From NCBI GenBank assembly GCA_009901575.1, contig WXYP01000001.1, forward strand, positions 496,001-560,000: a DNA stretch of 64,000 nucleotides. Reading direction: 5' to 3'. Shown here one piece after another: positions 10,855 to 31,615 of the stretch. Source of the DNA: Flavobacteriaceae bacterium R38. GTDB taxonomy: Bacteria; Bacteroidota; Bacteroidia; Flavobacteriales; Flavobacteriaceae. Made by a program: the position numbers and the translations under genes. Below the pieces are notes generated by a model. The model did no database searches. It was not told the DNA's origin and saw nothing but the letters and a program-made list of their open reading frames with translations. How positions within the stretch are numbered: the first letter of the stretch is position 1; each line of letters opens with the position of its first letter.

Positions 10855-11841
10855 ATGAAAAAAGTATTAATAACAGGAGCAGACGGATTTATAGGTTCTC
10901 ATTTAGTAGAAGAAATGATTCAATATGGATATAATGTCCGGGCGTTCTGTTTTTATAATTCGTTTAATTCTTATGGTTGGTTAGATACTTTAAAACCAGA
11001 AATTAAAAATCAAATTGATTTTTATTTAGGAGATGTACGCGATTACCAAAGCGTAAAAAATGCGGTTAAAGATTGTGATACCATTATTCATTTAGCAGCA
11101 TTAATCAGTATTCCTTATAGTTATCAGGCTCCGGATTCTTTTATAAAAACGAATATTACAGGTACTTTAAATGTATTACAAGCAGCTTTAGAAAATGAAT
11201 TGGATAACATAGTGGTAGCTTCTACATCTGAAATTTATGGTACTGCAATGTCTGTTCCCATTGAAGAAATTCACCCTGTTCAACCCCAGTCTCCTTATGC
11301 GGCTTCTAAAGTAGGAGCAGATGCACTAGCGATGTCTTATCATAGAAGTTATGGACTTAATGTTAGTATTGCACGTCCGTTCAATACATTTGGACCAAGA
11401 CAGTCAACTAGAGCTATTATACCTACTATTATCACGCAATTATTAGAAGGTAAAGAAGATATTTTTCTCGGAAGTTTAGTGCCAACACGTGATTTCTTAT
11501 ACGTAAAAGATACAGCAAAGGCTTTAATTGCTATTGCGAAACAACATGATATAGGAGGAGAAGTATTTAATATTTGTAGCGGAAACGAAATATCCATAAG
11601 TGATTTATCTGAAGTATTGATTAAAAAAATAAACCCGAATGCTAGTGTTTCTGAAGACAAACAACGCTTAAGGCCAGAAAAAAGTGAAGTTTTTAGATTG
11701 ATTGGCGATGCTTCCAAACTCACAGCTAAAACATTATGGAAACCAGAGTATTCTTTTGAAAATGCATTACAAAATACTATAGATTGGTTTTCTATTTCCG
11801 AAAATTTAGAAAAATATCAGGCAGATAGATATACTATTTAG
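10855..11841 (+). CDS. legB: UDP-GlcNAc 4,6-dehydratase, LegB-like (SDR family)
   Basis: Extended short-chain dehydrogenase/reductase. GADGFIGSH near the N-terminus is the NAD-binding loop, STSEIYG carries the Ser/Glu pair, and YAASK holds the catalytic Tyr and Lys. PFNTFGPRQS, IIPTIITQ and RLRPEKSEVFRL closely match what I recall of Campylobacter LegB, which turns UDP-GlcNAc into the 4-keto-6-deoxy intermediate of legionaminic acid. The length of 328 residues is normal. It sits 4 nt after the small phosphoglycosyl transferase gene, about 9 kb from the other nonulosonic acid genes. No PLP aminotransferase (LegC) accompanies it, so the fate of its product is open. Confidence 0.85.
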   Translation: MKKVLITGADGFIGSHLVEEMIQYGYNVRAFCFYNSFNSYGWLDTLKPEIKNQIDFYLGDVRDYQSVKNAVKDCDTIIHLAALISIPYSYQAPDSFIKTNITGTLNVLQAALENELDNIVVASTSEIYGTAMSVPIEEIHPVQPQSPYAASKVGADALAMSYHRSYGLNVSIARPFNTFGPRQSTRAIIPTIITQLLEGKEDIFLGSLVPTRDFLYVKDTAKALIAIAKQHDIGGEVFNICSGNEISISDLSEVLIKKINPNASVSEDKQRLRPEKSEVFRLIGDASKLTAKTLWKPEYSFENALQNTIDWFSISENLEKYQADRYTI

Positions 11842-21190: not shown

Positions 21191-22186
21191 ATGTATATCA
21201 TAGCAGAAATAGGGCAAGCGCATGAAGGAAGCTTAGGGATGGTACATGCATACATAGATGCAGTAGCAAAAACCGGGGCTAATGCTATAAAATTTCAGAC
21301 ACATATAGCAGAAGCAGAAAGCAGTGTACATGAACCTTTTAGAGTTAAATTTAGCAAACAAGATAAAACCAGGTTCGATTATTGGAAACGTATGGAGTTT
21401 ACTCCAGAGCAATGGATTGAAATAGGGAAACATTGTAAAGAAGTCGGATTGACATTTATTAGTAGTCCTTTTAGTAACCAGGCTGTAGACGTTCTTGAGG
21501 CTGCTGAGGTAGAAATTTATAAGATAGGTAGTGGTGAAGTATCCAATTTCTTATTGTTGAGAAAAATTATTGAGACTGAGAAAAAGATCATTATTTCCAG
21601 TGGAATGAGTTCCTGGGAAGAGCTTGATAAAACGGTCTCTTTTCTGGAAAAACACAATGCTGACTATTCTATTTTACAATGCACTACCAGCTATCCTACA
21701 AGACCTGAAGAATACGGATTAAATGTGATTAATGAACTTAAAGAACGATATAATGTTCCTATCGGTTTTTCAGATCATTCAGCCAGTATAGCTACAGGGA
21801 TTGCTGCAGTAGCACTTGGAGCAGAAATACTGGAGTTTCACGTGGTTTTTAATAAAGAGATGTTCGGGCCAGATGTTTCTTCTTCACTAACTATGGAAGA
21901 AACCAAAATGTTGATTTCAGGAGTTACATCTGTAAAAGAAGCATTGATGCATCCGATTGATAAGGGAGATAATTCACAATTTAATGAGCTTAAAAATATA
22001 TTTGAAAAATCATTGTCAGTTAATAAAAATGTGTCTAAAGGTCATATAATCACATTTTCAGATCTCGAAGCAAAAAAACCAAAAGGAATGGGGATTTCAG
22101 CTTCAGAATTTGAGACTGTAATTGGCAAAACAATGAAAACTGATTTAAAACAATGGGATTTTTTAAATGAAAAGGACCTAGAATAA
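21191..22186 (+). CDS. neuB: Nonulosonic acid synthase (NeuB/LegI family)
   Basis: Condenses a 6-carbon N-acyl-mannosamine-type sugar with phosphoenolpyruvate to give a nine-carbon sialic, legionaminic or similar acid. The TIM-barrel domain has IIAEIGQAHEGSLG, AIKFQTHIAEAES, ISSPFSNQAVD, KIGSGEVSN, SSGMSSWEEL, CTTSYPTRPEEYGL and GFSDHSASI. The last 60 residues (SLSVNKNVSKGHIIT, GMGISASEFETVIG) are the antifreeze-like SAF domain. The length of 331 residues is normal. The AHEGSLG form is the SpsE-like branch, so the exact product (Neu5Ac, Leg5Ac7Ac or another) cannot be settled by eye. It begins the block neuB-neuC-neuA with gaps of 2 and 0 nt. Confidence 0.92.
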   Translation: MYIIAEIGQAHEGSLGMVHAYIDAVAKTGANAIKFQTHIAEAESSVHEPFRVKFSKQDKTRFDYWKRMEFTPEQWIEIGKHCKEVGLTFISSPFSNQAVDVLEAAEVEIYKIGSGEVSNFLLLRKIIETEKKIIISSGMSSWEELDKTVSFLEKHNADYSILQCTTSYPTRPEEYGLNVINELKERYNVPIGFSDHSASIATGIAAVALGAEILEFHVVFNKEMFGPDVSSSLTMEETKMLISGVTSVKEALMHPIDKGDNSQFNELKNIFEKSLSVNKNVSKGHIITFSDLEAKKPKGMGISASEFETVIGKTMKTDLKQWDFLNEKDLE

Positions 22187-22188
22187 TT

Positions 22189-23349
22189 ATGGCGCAAATA
22201 CGAAAAATATGTGCAGTCATTACTGCAAGACCATCATACAGTAGGGTAAAAACTGCCCTGCAAGCTATTAAAAATCACCCTGGTTTGAAACTGCAATTAG
22301 TGGTTGCAGGTTCGGCTTTATTAGACCGATACGGTAATGCAATTAATTTTATTGAGAAAGATGGTTTTAAAATTGACGAAAAGGTTTTCATGGTTTTAGA
22401 AGGTGAGAATAAAACAGCTATGGCAAAAACTACCGGATTGGGAGTAATGGAATTGGCCAATGTTTTTTATAATCTACAACCAGATGCCGTACTAACTATA
22501 GCAGATAGATTTGAAACAATAGCGACTTCTATAGCAGCATCTTACCAAAATATACCATTAATTCATCTTCAAGGCGGAGAAGTAACCGGAAATATTGATG
22601 AAAAAGTCAGGCATGCGAATACTAAATTGGCAGACATTCATTTTGTAACTTCTAAAGATGCAAAAGAACGGGTAATTAAAATGGGAGAAGATGAAAATTA
22701 TGTGTTTAATACAGGATGCCCTTCTATAGACTTGGCAGCAGAAGCATTAAAAGAACCGTCATTAGATTTTAATCCTGTAGAACGTTATGGAGGAGTAGGT
22801 GGAGATATCTCTGCTGACGAGGATTATCTTGTTGTAATGCAGCACCCGGTAACTACAGAATATCATGAAGCCAGACAAAATGTTATAAAGACATTAAAAG
22901 TTATTCATTCGCTTAATATGCCAACATATTGGTTTTGGCCAAATATAGACGCAGGAGCTGACGGGACTTCTAATGGAATTCGCTCTTACAGGGAAAAATA
23001 TAACCCGACGAATATCCGTTTTTTTAAAAATATGGAACCTTCAGATTTCCTTAAATTATTGATCAATAGTAAATGCTTAATTGGAAATAGTAGTGTGGGA
23101 ATTAGAGAATGTTCTTTTTTAGGTATCCCGGTTGTAAACATTGGTACACGTCAAAACAAGAGATTGAGGGGAGAAAATGTCATAGACGTTTCATATGAAG
23201 AAATTGAAATACAGAATGCGATAGAGAAGCAATTGAATGTTGCTAAGTTTCCTAAAAATAATATTTACGGAGATGGAAATAGCGGAGAAAGAATTGCAGA
23301 AATATTAACTTCTATAAATTTAAGGTTCCATAAAACTATTACGTATTAA
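22189..23349 (+). CDS. neuC: UDP-N-acetylglucosamine 2-epimerase, hydrolysing (NeuC/LegG family)
   Basis: Releases UDP while inverting C2, giving ManNAc from UDP-GlcNAc (NeuC) or the 2,4-diacetamido-6-deoxymannose from the UDP-diacetamido sugar (LegG). The 386-residue GT-B-like protein has VITARPSYSRVKTA, TIADRFETIATSIAA, HLQGGEVTGNIDEKVRHA with the conserved Glu and His, MQHPVTTEY, and the C-terminal signature IGNSSVGIRECSFLGIPVVNIGTRQ. All these are diagnostic for the hydrolysing subgroup. The presence of LegB in the locus favours LegG; absence of an aminotransferase favours NeuC. It overlaps nothing and is 2 nt after neuB. Confidence 0.92.
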   Translation: MAQIRKICAVITARPSYSRVKTALQAIKNHPGLKLQLVVAGSALLDRYGNAINFIEKDGFKIDEKVFMVLEGENKTAMAKTTGLGVMELANVFYNLQPDAVLTIADRFETIATSIAASYQNIPLIHLQGGEVTGNIDEKVRHANTKLADIHFVTSKDAKERVIKMGEDENYVFNTGCPSIDLAAEALKEPSLDFNPVERYGGVGGDISADEDYLVVMQHPVTTEYHEARQNVIKTLKVIHSLNMPTYWFWPNIDAGADGTSNGIRSYREKYNPTNIRFFKNMEPSDFLKLLINSKCLIGNSSVGIRECSFLGIPVVNIGTRQNKRLRGENVIDVSYEEIEIQNAIEKQLNVAKFPKNNIYGDGNSGERIAEILTSINLRFHKTITY

Positions 23350-24042
23350 ATGAGGATATTAGGTATCATACCAGCCAGAGGTGGAAGTAAAGGAATTCCT
23401 AATAAAAATTTAAAACTTTTAAATGATAAGCCCTTATTACAATACACGATTGAAGCTGCTAATAAAGCTAAGTATTTAGATGAGTTAATACTTTCTTCCG
23501 AAGATGAAAATATAATTTCCATTGCAAAAGAACTTGGGGTCAAAGTACCGTTTATACGTCCGCCACATTTGGCAACCGATACTGCTGGTTCTTTAGAAGT
23601 TGTCCAACATGCAATTCATTTTTATCAACAGAAAAAAGAAACTTACGATGCTATTTGCTTACTTCAGGCAACGGTTCCTTTTAGAACATCTGCAGATATT
23701 GATAGGGCTCTCGAAATGTTTATTAAAAAAAAACCTGATGCTTTGATCTCGGTTGAGAAAATTCCTCATCAGTATAACCCGCATTGGGCTTTTAAAGCAG
23801 ACAATGAAAATAATCTTGTGATTGCTACCGGAGATGAAAAAATTATTAAAAGAAGACAAGAATTACCTGAAGCCTATGTGAGAGATGGTGCTATCTATAT
23901 TACAAGGACCGAAGTAATTATGGATCAAAACTCTTTTTTGGGAAATAAAACGGCTTATATTGAACTCAATAACCCCAACAGTATTAATATTGATACTCCT
24001 GAAGATTGGGAACGTGCGGAAGAAATTATAAAAACACTTTGA
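23350..24042 (+). CDS. neuA: CMP-nonulosonic acid cytidylyltransferase (NeuA/LegF family)
   Basis: Activates the nonulosonic acid with CTP to the CMP-sugar used by transferases. The 230-residue protein has the nucleotide-binding N-terminus IIPARGGSKGIPNKNL, DELILSSEDENI, LLQATVPFRTSADID near residue 100, and YVRDGAIYITR and NIDTPEDWERAEEII near the C-terminus. The size fits the single-domain group without the extra C-terminal hydrolase. It begins on the base following the neuC stop codon and ends just before the ATG of the next gene, so the four genes 21191-25410 form a coupled block. Confidence 0.92.
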   Translation: MRILGIIPARGGSKGIPNKNLKLLNDKPLLQYTIEAANKAKYLDELILSSEDENIISIAKELGVKVPFIRPPHLATDTAGSLEVVQHAIHFYQQKKETYDAICLLQATVPFRTSADIDRALEMFIKKKPDALISVEKIPHQYNPHWAFKADNENNLVIATGDEKIIKRRQELPEAYVRDGAIYITRTEVIMDQNSFLGNKTAYIELNNPNSINIDTPEDWERAEEIIKTL

Positions 24043-25410
24043 ATGAAAAAAATATTGCTTTTAGTTCCAGATGGAGTTGGAATAAAAAATTATCTTTTTT
24101 CAGATGTATTCAAAAATGTGAACTATGAAGTTTCACTCTTGCACGATTTTGATGATAAGACATTATTAGATGTCCAACAGACAGTAAATTTTCATAAAAG
24201 CCATAAATTATCATACTACAAAGAATCTCTTAAAGAAAAATTCTTTAGAGAACTGATTCATCTTTCCAGATTAAAATATAATGCAAGGCGTGTTCATAAC
24301 AAGAGTATTTTAAAGAGCTGGAATCCAAAGAAAAAAAACTTTCAAATTGCTCTTTTTTATAAATTGATTCACCTTACTTCTTTAGTAGTGATTCATTATA
24401 AATTTATTCTCTTTCTGGAGAAATATTATCAAAAGTTATTAAAGAAAAACAAATTTTACAATTGGTCTTATAAATTTCTGGAAGAAGAGAAGCCAGACAT
24501 AATTTTTTGCACACATCAAAGAGCTTTAAAGGCCCCAACTATTTTTAATGCTGCCAAAGAATTAGATATAAAAAGCATTACTGTTATCTATTCATGGGAT
24601 AATGTACCCAAAGCCAGATTGGCTTTAAAAGCCGATTATTATTTTGTTTGGTCAAAACATATGTATGAAGAATTGATTCAATTTTACCCCGAAATCGGTG
24701 AAGATCAAATTGAAATAACAGGAACTCCGCAATTTGAATTCTATGCTAAGAACGATAATATCATAGATAAGAACCATTTTTATGATAAATATTCACTGGA
24801 TATTAATAAAAAATTAATTTGTTTTTCGGGAGACGATGTTAAGACATCCCCTTATGACCCGGATTATCTTGAAGATGTAGCAGAATCTATTATAGCTAAT
24901 AATATGGAGAACGATTATCAAATTGTATTTCGTAGGTGTCCTGTAGATATATCCGGTAGATTCGATGAAGTGGTAAAAAAATATAAAAACGTAATAAGAG
25001 AGATACCTCCTTTGTGGAATTTTAATAATGATGGCTGGACTACTGTATACCCTTTACATGACGATGTGAAATTATTAGTGAGCCTATGTTATTATTCTGA
25101 TACGGTGATTAATGTAGGGTCTACCATGGCTTTCGATTTTGGAATGTTTGAGAAGCCTTGTATATTTATAAATTATGATCAGCAAGAGGCAAAAAACTGG
25201 TCTGTAGAAACTATTTATAATTATCAGCATTTTAGAAGCATGCCAGACAAAAATGCGGTGATATGGTTAAACTCCAAAGAGGAAATCAAATCCTCTTTAT
25301 TAAAAGCAATTAGTAAAAATGGAGTCGATATTAAGAGTTGGTTTGATAAAGTAATAGAGGATCCTAATATGGCTTCCCATTTAATTAAGGAAAAACTTAA
25401 AACAATTTAA
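24043..25410 (+). CDS. Unassigned GT-B-like protein, candidate nonulosonate transferase
   Basis: A 455-residue soluble protein I cannot place in a named family. The N-terminus KKILLLVPDGVGIKNYLF resembles a Rossmann start. The middle part DIIFCTHQRALKAPTIFNAA, VIYSWDNVPKARLALKADYY and IEITGTPQFEFY looks like the acceptor/donor cleft of CDP-glycerol transferase or capsule GT-B enzymes. Near residue 360 VINVGSTMAFDFGMFEKPCIF resembles their nucleotide-binding end, where Ser-Thr and an acidic residue contact the nucleotide. Its place, zero bases after the CMP-sugar synthetase gene, suggests it uses the CMP-nonulosonic acid. That is inference from context; no known sialyltransferase motif set was recognised. 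Confidence 0.6.
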   Translation: MKKILLLVPDGVGIKNYLFSDVFKNVNYEVSLLHDFDDKTLLDVQQTVNFHKSHKLSYYKESLKEKFFRELIHLSRLKYNARRVHNKSILKSWNPKKKNFQIALFYKLIHLTSLVVIHYKFILFLEKYYQKLLKKNKFYNWSYKFLEEEKPDIIFCTHQRALKAPTIFNAAKELDIKSITVIYSWDNVPKARLALKADYYFVWSKHMYEELIQFYPEIGEDQIEITGTPQFEFYAKNDNIIDKNHFYDKYSLDINKKLICFSGDDVKTSPYDPDYLEDVAESIIANNMENDYQIVFRRCPVDISGRFDEVVKKYKNVIREIPPLWNFNNDGWTTVYPLHDDVKLLVSLCYYSDTVINVGSTMAFDFGMFEKPCIFINYDQQEAKNWSVETIYNYQHFRSMPDKNAVIWLNSKEEIKSSLLKAISKNGVDIKSWFDKVIEDPNMASHLIKEKLKTI

Positions 25411-26540
25411 TGCATATATGTTTTTTATCAAATGAGTACCCAATATGGGCAACCGGAGGGGTTGGGAGCTTTTTACAGACGTTTAGCAGAGCTGTTGTAC
25501 AAAGAGGGCATAAAGTTACTATTATAGGAATTGGAGAAGAGGAAAAGACAATTACGATAGATGACAAAGGAGTGCAAATAGTTAGGCTTCCTAAACCGAA
25601 ATCTCCCTGGCTGAGGTTCATTGAGAATTTTTCAAAACTCAATAAAAAAATAAAAGAAATCCATTCATTAGACCCTATAGATGTCGTAGAAACACCAGAA
25701 ATGGGATTATCTTTTATTAAAAAAATACCGGGTATTAAATATGTAATACGGTTGCATGGAGGGCATCATTTTTTTGCAGAATCAGAAAATAGAGGAATTC
25801 ACTGGAAGAAAGGTTGGATGGAAAAAAAATCCTTTACGAAAGCCGATGCCTTTATAGCTGTTTCAGATTATGTGAAGAATCATACAGCTAAATATTTATC
25901 ATATAATCAGAAGCAGGTAACAATTATTAATTACCCGATAGATAGCGATCTTTTTAGCCCCAGAGCACATATCAAACCGGAACCTTATAATATTACATTT
26001 GCCGGAACCATATGTGAAAAAAAAGGAATCAGGCAACTCATTGAAGCTGTGATACAGTTACACAAGAAGTATCCAGATTTAAAACTACATGTATATGGGA
26101 GGGATTGGAAATTTGCCAATGGAAAATCTTATCTTGAAATGCTTAAAGAAAAATATACAGAGGGTATAAAAACTTCTGTGATTTTTCATGGTATCATACC
26201 TTACAGGGAGTTGCCTGAAAAATATGCACAGGCAGAAGTATGTGTTTTTCCTTCTCATATGGAGACGCAAGGATTAGTTGCTCCGGAAGCCATGGCTATG
26301 GAAAAGCCTGTAATTTTCACGAAACTAGGTCCGGGTCCGGAGACTATTGAAGATTTTAAAACAGGATTATTATGTGACCCTCATTTACCAGAGGATATTG
26401 CAGAGAAACTTGATTGGATGTTGAGTAATTATGAGGAAAGATCTGGAATGGGTAAAGAAGCGAGAAGTTTTGTGTTAGAGAAATATAATTTGCAAAAAAT
26501 ACTTGATAAAAACATAGCATTTTATAAAGAAATAAGATAA
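25410..26540 (+). CDS. GT4 glycosyltransferase
   Basis: A 376-residue GT-B glycosyltransferase. The N-terminus ICFLSNEYPIWATGGVGSF carries the glycine-rich acceptor loop, followed by VIRLHGGHHFF and AVSDYVKNH. The C-half has ITFAGTICEKKGIRQLI, LHVYGRDW and METQGLVAPEAMAMEKPVIF, with the GT4 glutamate pair. The ATG shares one base with the stop codon of the preceding gene (TAATG), so it is cotranslated with the nonulosonate block. The donor is unknown. Confidence 0.89.
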   Translation: MHICFLSNEYPIWATGGVGSFLQTFSRAVVQRGHKVTIIGIGEEEKTITIDDKGVQIVRLPKPKSPWLRFIENFSKLNKKIKEIHSLDPIDVVETPEMGLSFIKKIPGIKYVIRLHGGHHFFAESENRGIHWKKGWMEKKSFTKADAFIAVSDYVKNHTAKYLSYNQKQVTIINYPIDSDLFSPRAHIKPEPYNITFAGTICEKKGIRQLIEAVIQLHKKYPDLKLHVYGRDWKFANGKSYLEMLKEKYTEGIKTSVIFHGIIPYRELPEKYAQAEVCVFPSHMETQGLVAPEAMAMEKPVIFTKLGPGPETIEDFKTGLLCDPHLPEDIAEKLDWMLSNYEERSGMGKEARSFVLEKYNLQKILDKNIAFYKEIR

Positions 26541-29285: not shown

Positions 29286-30639
29286 ATATATTAAGCAACA
29301 TAAGTTTGAGTTTGGACTGATAATAATTCATTTGTTATTTGGCGGACTTATCTTTTTTCTTCCTGTATTTTCAAAATTTCTCAGTTTTTTTTCAATTGGG
29401 ATAGCACTCCTGTATATTTTAAAATTTAAAAACAGGAATAATGAAGTTTTACTGGCATGTGCTTATTTTGTTGGAAGTGATGTTTTATTAAGAATGACAG
29501 GAGGGCTCTTTTTCTATGAGCTTACAAAATATTTATTGATACTATTCTTATTCTTAGGGTTTTTGTACAAACAAATGTCTTCTAAGAATATTATCTATAT
29601 CTTTTACATTCTGCTATTAATTCCGGGTATTTTTATTGCCTCCTATACATATAAATATAATATAGATTTAAGGAAATCTATAGCCTTTAATTTGAGTGGC
29701 CCTGTATCATTAGGGGTAATGGCTTTATACTGTTATGATAGAAGAGTGAGTTTTTATTTTGTAAATAAAATCTTGTTCTTTTTTTTACTACCAATCCTTT
29801 CAATGACTGCGTATCTTTTTCTTTATACTCCTAATCTACAGGATGTCATTACCGGTACACAATCAAATTTTGCTGCTTCAGGAGGGTTCGGACCTAATCA
29901 GGTGAGTACTATTTTAGGGATAGGAATGTTTGTTTTATCTGTACGGTTTTTAATTTTTTCACCATCGGTTTTTTGGAAATTTATTAATGGCGGGTTATTT
30001 ATATTGGTATCGTTTAGAGCACTATTGACCTTTTCAAGAGGAGGAGTCCTTACAGCAGTTGTAGCTATTCTTTTTTTTACCATTATGGTTTATTATATTT
30101 CAAGAGGAGTCACTCGAAAACAACTTATCAGAACAATAACAATAAGTTTATTTAGCATAGTAGCTGTATGGTTGTACTCAGTGTATATTTCTAATGGATT
30201 AATAGAAAACAGGTATAGAAATAGAAATGCAGCGGGAGTAGAAAAAGAGGATATTACTACTGGAAGAACAGATCTATTAAATTCTGAATTACAAGCTTTT
30301 TATGAAAATCCGTTTTTTGGGATAGGTGTTGGAAATAATAGATTTTATAGGCAAGATACTACGGGGATTGAATCGGCTACACACAATGAGATAAGCCGAA
30401 TTTTAGCAGAGCACGGGACTTTTGGAATTATTGCCTTTTTGATATTATTTTTTACTCCCATATATCGTTTTTTTGTATTCAAAAAAAATGTTTTTTTCTT
30501 TTCTTTTTTTCTATTTTGGTTTTTAACCATTAACCATAGTGCTATGAGAATTGCTGCACCAGCATTCATTTACGGCTTATCCTTACTAACCATTACCAGT
30601 GAAAAAAATACTATACATAGGAAACAAATTAGAGGGTAA
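29269..30639 (+). CDS. Wzy_C / O-antigen ligase-like membrane protein
   Basis: A 456-residue integral membrane protein with about ten to twelve hydrophobic segments. Between the later helices a periplasmic loop is expected, with FSRGGVLTA on its approach and FFGIGVGNNRFYR, then THNEISRILAEHGTFGIIAF, the conserved region of the O-antigen ligase/polymerase (Wzy_C) family. Such proteins either ligate O-chains to lipid A core (WaaL) or polymerise repeat units (Wzy). Because the locus has an ABC exporter and no Wzx flippase, a ligase role is more likely, though this is inference. It overlaps its neighbours by 17 and 41 nt. Confidence 0.82.
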   Translation: MKQSGKYIKQHKFEFGLIIIHLLFGGLIFFLPVFSKFLSFFSIGIALLYILKFKNRNNEVLLACAYFVGSDVLLRMTGGLFFYELTKYLLILFLFLGFLYKQMSSKNIIYIFYILLLIPGIFIASYTYKYNIDLRKSIAFNLSGPVSLGVMALYCYDRRVSFYFVNKILFFFLLPILSMTAYLFLYTPNLQDVITGTQSNFAASGGFGPNQVSTILGIGMFVLSVRFLIFSPSVFWKFINGGLFILVSFRALLTFSRGGVLTAVVAILFFTIMVYYISRGVTRKQLIRTITISLFSIVAVWLYSVYISNGLIENRYRNRNAAGVEKEDITTGRTDLLNSELQAFYENPFFGIGVGNNRFYRQDTTGIESATHNEISRILAEHGTFGIIAFLILFFTPIYRFFVFKKNVFFFSFFLFWFLTINHSAMRIAAPAFIYGLSLLTITSEKNTIHRKQIRG

Positions 30640-31615
30640 AGGGAAAACTGCAAGCTCTATTGATGTATTAGGTACTTTATTGGAAAATGAAGGCTATACT
30701 GTCTATTATGCTTCTTCTAAGAACAATAAAATTTTTAGATTATTGGATATGCTATTTGCATGTTTCAGGTACAGAAAAAAAGCGGACTTGGTTTTGATTG
30801 ATACTTACAGTACTCAAAATTTTTACTATGCATTGCTAGTGAGCCAGTCGTGTCGGTTTTTTAAATTACCTTATGTCCCGATTTTACATGGGGGAAATTT
30901 AGAAAACAGGCTTGAAAATAATTTAAAGAGTTGTAAAAAGATTTTTAATCATGCTCAGATCTGTGTCGCACCTTCTTTATTTTTAAAGGATGTTTTTAAA
31001 AAATATGGCTTCAAAGAAATTGTACATATCCCTAATCCTATTTCAATAGAAGAATATCAGTTTATAAAGCGTGATAAATTAAAACCTAAACTTTTATGGG
31101 TACGTGCTTTTTCAAAAATTTATAATCCTATAATGGCATTACAAGTAGTAAAACTACTTAATGATATGGGAATTGAAGGTTCTCTGTCTATGGTAGGGCC
31201 TGATAAAGACGGTAGTATGGGGAAAGCAAAAAATGAAGCCGAAAAATTAGGCATTAAAGTAGAGTTTACGGGAAAATTACACAAAGCTGAATGGATAGCA
31301 TATGCTAAAGACTTCGATATTTTTATCAATACTACTAATTTTGATAATACCCCGGTTAGTGTTGTAGAAGGAATGGCACTGGGCTTACCGGTAATTTCAA
31401 CCAATGCAGGAGGAATTCCTTATTTAATTGAACATAGAAAAGAAGCATTATTGGTAGAAAAAGGAGATGCTGAAGCAATGGCCAATGGAATAAAGGAATT
31501 ACTTGAAGCTCCGGAATTAGTTGAAAAACTAACTCAAAACGCAAAAGAGAAAGTAAAATCTTTTGATTGGAAGGTTGTTAAAGTTAAATGGAAAGAGATT
31601 ATAGATGCTCCATAA
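30599..31615 (+). CDS. GT4 glycosyltransferase
   Basis: A 338-residue GT-B glycosyltransferase starting at GTG 30599, which lies 41 nt inside the preceding gene; MKKILYIGNKLEGKG then follows the family start (glycine-rich acceptor loop), supporting this choice. The C-half has LLWVRAFSKIYNPIMAL, LSMVGPDKDGS and FDNTPVSVVEGMALGLPVIS; here the first acidic residue of the GT4 pair is Asp, as in other relatives with the NTPVSVVE form. It overlaps the CapK-like gene by 11 nt. Confidence 0.87.
   Translation: MKKILYIGNKLEGKGKTASSIDVLGTLLENEGYTVYYASSKNNKIFRLLDMLFACFRYRKKADLVLIDTYSTQNFYYALLVSQSCRFFKLPYVPILHGGNLENRLENNLKSCKKIFNHAQICVAPSLFLKDVFKKYGFKEIVHIPNPISIEEYQFIKRDKLKPKLLWVRAFSKIYNPIMALQVVKLLNDMGIEGSLSMVGPDKDGSMGKAKNEAEKLGIKVEFTGKLHKAEWIAYAKDFDIFINTTNFDNTPVSVVEGMALGLPVISTNAGGIPYLIEHRKEALLVEKGDAEAMANGIKELLEAPELVEKLTQNAKEKVKSFDWKVVKVKWKEIIDAP

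Follow-up and report, generated by a model that had tools for sequence, protein, structure and literature searches.

The window analysed here, a stretch of 64,000 nucleotides from Flavobacteriaceae bacterium R38, carries a gene, designated GTX, whose product very probably transfers a nonulosonate (NulO) from CMP-NulO to a polysaccharide repeat. We infer this donor from the near-perfect co-occurrence of GTX with the synthase NeuB and its operon linkage with CMP-NulO genes, from a GTX tree that follows the donor pathway as the neuB tree does and better than the trees of neighbouring glycosyltransferases, from a polysialyltransferase-like gene that takes the same spot in loci lacking GTX, and from the (K/R)XHP motif in deep relatives. 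Co-occurrence, linkage, tree tracking, replacement and the deep-relative motif thus all support the initial annotation, which had put the gene forward as the best candidate CMP-nonulosonate transferase, possibly of an unlisted family.

GTX lies in an O-antigen-type locus comprising Wzm/Wzt-like export genes, a polyprenyl glycosylphosphotransferase gene, glycosyltransferases of the GT2 and GT4 types, and NeuB, NeuC and NeuA (Table 1). As first annotated, its ATG is the very next base after the neuA stop at 24042; the downstream glycosyltransferase gene starts at position 25410. The claim that no other gene here is an obvious CMP-nonulosonate transferase also stands, in that the seven other glycosyltransferase genes scanned with Pfam are of the GT2 or GT4 type; by NCBIfam, the window glycosyltransferase gene at 30599-31612 is GT4-like.

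Table 1. Features of the window bearing on GTX. Counts out of 144 rows here, and out of 146 rows in the text, mix two sets sharing some genomes (e.g., L060, L123).
Feature	Position	Strand	Remarks
LegB-like 4,6-dehydratase	10855..11841	+	TIGR04180, 455.6 bits, cut-off 475 not reached
NeuB-type nonulosonate synthase	21191..22186	+	Sole PF03102 match found in genome
NeuC-type UDP-GlcNAc 2-epimerase	22189..23349	+	TIGR03568, 398.3 bits against cut-off of 235.9
NeuA-type CMP-nonulosonate synthetase	23350..24042	+	PF02348; PseF-like, below NCBIfam cut-off
GTX, candidate CMP-nonulosonate transferase, predicted GT-B, 455 aa	24043..25410	+	ATG start
SWDN, residues 184-187	24592..24603	+	Every position in at least 143/144 rows
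GTPQF, residues 227-231	24721..24735	+	G and P in 144/144 rows
RRCP, residues 297-300, (K/R)XHP position	24931..24942	+	R297 in 143/144, P300 in 142/144; Cys for His
Ser-Thr, residues 360-361, proposed CMP phosphate site	25120..25125	+	S in 143/144; T in 120 and S in 22 of 144
His396	25228..25230	+	141/144 rows
GT4c, GT4-type glycosyltransferase, conserved partner of GTX	25410..26540	+	Cluster in 60/61 loci

The gene had been described as conserved, and this is borne out by homologues in many genomes and by a 36-row alignment in which 18 columns are invariant while identity falls to as low as 26%. Of 299 genomes from the window's family, 109 have homologues at E <= 1e-10, as do 33 of 395 from the phylum; the window's own genome (one match) is included in both counts, and both sets are draws in which related genomes are not independent. 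One homologue, in Flavobacterium johnsoniae strain CI04 (locus L130), shares 55% identity. The plasmid records and viral contigs searched yielded no relative. In one genome (G205, locus L076) the homologue is divided between two frames, and in locus L171 the frame is broken.

The description of the protein as unrecognised likewise holds, as it has no full-length match in Pfam or NCBIfam and no NCBIfam assignment. The single family cut-off passed among those tested is that of MGDG_synth (PF06925; 27.7 bits, cut-off 25), and this match covers residues 81-229 only. Neither the GT28 C-terminal UDP-sugar domain nor any sialyltransferase family is among the Pfam matches listed for GTX at E <= 10, and no sialyltransferase family is among those of the 36 members at E <= 0.01. 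Glyphos_transf (PF04464) scores 18.2 bits on GTX, below its gathering cut-off of 22.1; of the 36 members, 16 are matched by it at E <= 0.01, the lowest E being 2.7e-7. No PDB sequence matched the GTX protein at E <= 10, and the 36-row profile returned five matches, of which the best are TarL and a clock protein (E 0.031 each). No description of the family was found in open-licence PMC papers.

An AlphaFold2 model built from 67 sequences (mean pLDDT 93.4, pTM 0.90) and its PDB fold matches confirm the proposal that GTX is GT-B-like, with GT-B proteins matching the model across residues 1-455. The matches listed are UDP-sugar 2-epimerases and GT-B glycosyltransferases, including MshA; for the whole model they include NeuC (5xvs, Z 24.2, 3.9 A over 328 residues), TarL (20.9), MGD1 (20.1) and TagF (18.8). 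Modelled alone, the C-terminal half (pLDDT 88.6) gives a similar mix, with trehalose synthases in addition. Known sialyltransferases and Kdo transferases are absent from the best 50 fold matches listed per search, which excludes nothing. The closest folds belong to users of UDP-GlcNAc, CDP-ribitol or CDP-glycerol, which weighs against the donor reading; the GT-B fold itself does not settle the donor of GTX. The initial annotation had named a strong structural match to a family with another donor as evidence against its proposal; epimerases and CDP-polyol polymerases do come out on top, a result that establishes the GT-B fold and leaves the donor unsettled.

NeuB was found in 156 of the 299 family genomes (E <= 1e-20), namely in 108 of 109 genomes with GTX versus 48 of 190 without it (Fisher p 1e-41, treating related genomes as independent). 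The one exception (G071, locus L253), a single contig of 99% estimated completeness, has a GTX-GT4c module and no NeuB match, and counts against the donor reading. The association extends to physical linkage: among 89 of the 110 GTX places for which distance was counted, NeuB shares the contig at a distance of up to 15 kb in 81, and of up to 6 kb in 71. In the remainder NeuB lies on another contig (G031, G042, G181, G257, G263), 25 kb off (G007) or 914 kb off (G141), placements that weigh against the donor reading, and the eighth place (G101) falls outside the distance listing, although its locus (L060) holds neuB.

Gene order was compared in 61 loci, comprising 60 fetched loci and the window, with genes labelled by their best BLAST matches to clusters (labels of the phosphatase-fused type described below are less sure at 36-41% identity, in L206, L210 and L214-L216). 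The neuA cluster is present in 50 loci, neuB in 49, neuC in 48 and GT4c in 60, and a CMP-NulO synthetase cluster, counting the phosphatase-fused type, occurs on the same strand within about 8.5 kb on either side of GTX in 55 of 61. In the six other loci, NeuB is 8.5-23 kb away (between midpoints) on the same contig (L077, L084, L093, L094 and L097) or on another contig (L105). Full flanks are available for 63 of 80 named loci, a set that overlaps the 61 in its genomes, and at least one NulO gene is present in 60 of those 63. The linkage extends beyond the window's family: in L119, which holds a distant relative sharing 25% identity with its best GTX match, the order is neuB, neuC, a dehydrogenase gene, neuA, one ORF and then the GTX relative. 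Close orthologues of GT4c (E <= 1e-60) are found only in genomes with GTX (22/22). Several loci have an asnB-like amidotransferase gene interposed between neuA and GTX, in seven of them immediately before GTX (examples among the asnB-like loci are L072, L073, L083, L090, L103, L107 and L109); its product might yield amidated or acetamidino nonulosonates. The names asnB, 4,6-dehydratase and PseI-like, as applied to these and other loci including L111, are readings of sequence.

Two donor pathways are found in GTX loci: a NeuC-derived pathway (48 loci) and a phosphatase-fused, KDN-like pathway (25 loci). In the latter, the CMP synthetase is joined to a HAD domain resembling KdsC and KDN-9-phosphatase, with a short NeuB adjacent and no neuC in the stretch. 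Examples are loci L099-L102, L116 and L255-L274 (e.g., L101:12097-13254). "KDN-like" is used as a label: the fused phosphatase of L101 scores 123.5 bits with NF058599, for which the cut-off of 180 is not reached, and lies above the KdsC-subfamily cut-off. Judged by these matches, a KDN-like pathway would be present in many genomes of the window's family.

To a degree matched by neuB, the GTX tree separates these two donor types. The donor type changes once on the GTX tree (73 rows; mean over 300 shuffles 21.1, lowest 16) and once on the neuB tree (67 rows; 20.3, 14), compared with 9 times on the GT4c tree (73 rows; 21.0, 15), 6 on the GT4d tree (49 rows; 13.0, 6), 5 on the GT4e tree (45 rows; 10.7, 8) and 5 on the MBOAT tree (29 rows; 9.4, 5), the neuB, GT4d, GT4e and MBOAT trees having fewer rows. 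The GTX count omits 9 of 82 loci that carry no clear donor label, and 20 of the 21 loci added to the first 61 were chosen mostly for a short NeuB frame beside GTX and not for GTX sequence. A repeat with IQ-TREE left the counts for GTX (1) and GT4c (9) unchanged. GTX therefore tracks donor type as closely as neuB does, and the glycosyltransferases on its other side have been reshuffled more. GT4c also follows donor type in part, and better than chance, which weighs against the donor reading of GTX. The tracking by GTX could instead reflect movement of GTX in a cassette with neuB, or recognition of the NulO as an acceptor.

Genomes that contain NeuB and no GTX offer a view of what stands in its place. 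Twenty NeuB loci were fetched from genomes in which GTX was not found; ten of them have a synthetase whose best match is the phosphatase-fused type, and in 6 of these ten it is adjoined by a polysialyltransferase-like gene of PF07388. By genome, PF07388 is present in 17 of 48 with NeuB and no GTX versus 7 of 108 with both (Fisher p 1.2e-5), and in 5 of 143 without NeuB; its presence in the 7 genomes with both counts against the donor reading. A scan of 20 proteins from the GTX-negative loci detected PF07388 in two (L203, L206), and in GTX-negative loci without it other solutions must exist. One GTX-negative locus (L214:11428-13871) encodes, after its phosphatase-fused-type synthetase, a pair of neighbouring proteins that are each about 405 aa long and match nothing in Pfam at E <= 0.01; these are possible further transferases. 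Like GTX, the PF07388 alpha-2,8-polysialyltransferase-like proteins adjoin CMP-NulO genes and have Ser/Thr pairs, but they are about 350 aa long with KTHP or KGHP, whereas GTX has 455 aa and RRCP. An hhalign comparison of GTX with six PF07388-type proteins was not significant (3.5%, E 0.012), a further point against the donor reading.

The (K/R)XHP motif is common to sialyltransferases (families GT29, 38, 42, 52 and 80) and retaining Kdo transferases, according to the portions available of a 2026 paper (PMC12887879), in which the motif His and a Ser pair are placed at the CMP phosphate. In the window protein this feature fails at one position, R297-x-C299-P300. Across 146 rows, residue 299 is Cys in 107, Ser in 13, Ala in 10, Val in 8, Tyr in 4, His in 3 and Asn in 1. 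His is confined to three deep relatives (L117, L119, L241; motifs RCHP, RPHP and RLHP among the three), and the profile built from them matches GTX almost from end to end (E 2.4e-47). This distribution suggests that the motif His was lost within the GTX family, a direction that we infer because the tree was rooted by choice on L117. The initial annotation saw no sialyltransferase motif set, a statement that needs revision, as GTX keeps an S-[ST] pair together with an altered (K/R)XHP (R-X-C-P). The segment it quoted, GSTMAFDFGMFEKP, comprises residues 359-372. Two observations count against the donor reading: the four deep rows with Tyr at residue 299 (L111, L118, L248, L251), and the replacement, in the core GTX family, of the His that matches H227 of KrkA, which the same paper, in the portions available, reports as essential (H227A is inactive).

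Comparison with characterized systems gives a similar picture of partial likeness. Retaining Kdo transferases (GT99, GT107 and KrkA of GT140) use CMP-sugar donors and combine (K/R)XHP with a Ser pair, and KrkA itself has Ser in place of the K/R (PMC12887879, portions available). They differ from GTX, in which the motif His is replaced, and they were not matched in the PDB sequence searches. The best match of the NCBIfam family NF046086 (BFO_1060 family) among the 36 GTX members has E 1.7e-15, and 26 members are matched at E <= 0.05; the window protein itself gives no match at E 0.05 (family cut-off 200 bits), which weighs against the donor reading. Aligned by hhalign with a BFO_1060-type profile of three rows (one member above cut-off and two relatives below), GTX matches in the C-terminal half (96.2%, E 2.4e-9), with RRCP opposite KAHP; the three rows read KAHP, RPHP and RAHP, whereas GTX has RXCP. 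By this profile alignment, GTX and NCBIfam's BFO_1060 glycosyltransferases are distantly related, sharing a homologous C-terminal half. A protein above the NF046086 cut-off occurs in 1 of 295 genomes of the class (450 aa, in L111). In that locus (L111:6202-8940), a NeuB-family gene is followed in tandem by the BFO_1060-family glycosyltransferase and a GTX homologue. An asnB-like gene and another neuA lie at a greater distance, and the locus may make two nonulosonates and have two transferases for them. BFO_ tags belong to T. forsythia 92A2 according to the passages available of PMC7468200, where the one BFO_10xx tag denotes another gene, and BFO_1060 was not found in open-licence PMC papers. 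BFO_1060 is possibly the GtfS / TFUB4_00887 nonulosonate transferase. The T. forsythia gtfS gene (445 aa) lies downstream of pseI (PMC6120980), and upon its deletion the terminal pseudaminic acid derivative and one methyl group are gone (PMC6120980; review PMC6388019), as described in the sections available of these sources.

The donor reading has to be weighed against other explanations of the same data. If the NulO were the acceptor of GTX, which would then add another sugar onto it, the type of NulO would be tracked through acceptor recognition; the co-occurrence and donor-pathway tracking would look identical, and the fold is neutral. This is unlikely, however, because it would leave the locus with no recognised CMP-NulO transferase, given that the other scanned glycosyltransferases of the window are GT2 or GT4, and both the polysialyltransferase-like gene that adjoins the synthetase in 6 of the 10 phosphatase-fused GTX-negative loci and the (K/R)XHP motif of the three deep relatives speak against it. 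It is very unlikely that GT4c is the NulO transferase and that GTX works elsewhere in the repeat. In favour of this, 60 of the 61 loci have the GT4c cluster, as do all 63 fully flanked named loci; close orthologues of GT4c share the restriction to GTX-positive genomes noted above, and its 9 donor-type changes are below the lowest of the 300 shuffles (15). Nevertheless, those 9 changes compare with one for GTX, and no gene of the GT4c cluster was seen in the stretches L111 and L119, although their GTX homologues adjoin NulO genes. Known GT4 donors are UDP-, GDP- or ADP-sugars.

Two further explanations were weighed. TagF and TarL, polymerases that use CDP-polyols (PF04464), share with GTX a GT-B fold and weak sequence similarity in the C-terminal half, and a CDP-polyol donor could be argued from the PF04464 matches to 16 of the 36 members and from the structural scores with TarL and TagF (Z 20.9 and 18.8). 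We regard such a donor as highly improbable, as the window protein is below the PF04464 cut-off and has the KXHP His replaced, and GTX is linked to CMP-NulO genes, with no CDP-glycerol gene among the genes scanned in part of the window. Least probable of all is a role for GTX as a sugar epimerase like NeuC, or as a GT-B protein without catalytic activity, for which its top structural matches, UDP-GlcNAc 2-epimerases headed by NeuC, could be cited. The window, however, already has a NeuC, as do 48 of the 61 loci, and GTX is also found in the 25 loci of the phosphatase-fused type, whose stretches yielded no neuC. No Epimerase_2 is among the Pfam matches listed for GTX, and motifs this close to invariant point to an active site.

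Taking GTX as the CMP-NulO transferase, the products of neuB, neuC and neuA would make CMP-NulO, from which GTX would take the NulO and add it onto the growing repeat of an O-antigen-like polysaccharide. By analogy with CMP-sugar transferases as portrayed in the available portions of PMC12887879, R297 would hold the cytosine and S360/T361 the CMP phosphate. The role of the lost His may have passed to other conserved residues, with H396 a candidate. The sugar of the window would be of the Neu5Ac or the legionaminic type, the choice between them being unsettled; in relatives the sugar seems to be KDN-like. A legionaminic-type sugar may be indicated by the LegB-like dehydratase, which may belong to the donor pathway, together with a LegC-like aminotransferase 409 kb from the window (G000:C3:929243-930289; 383.9 bits, cut-off of 420 not reached).

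For the family as a whole, we lean towards a broader reading, in which these proteins make up an unnamed and large group of CMP-nonulosonate transferases of Bacteroidota that use NeuC-derived and KDN-like donors, descend from (K/R)XHP enzymes, have dispensed with the His and have rebuilt phosphate binding elsewhere. If correct, this would put in question the need for the (K/R)XHP His in transferases of the CMP-sialic acid type, and would give enzymatic synthesis a group of transferases whose natural donors are of two or more types. It would also name the missing sialyltransferase-like enzyme for more than a third of the sampled genomes of the window's family (109/299), the O-antigen loci of which would thereby become readable.
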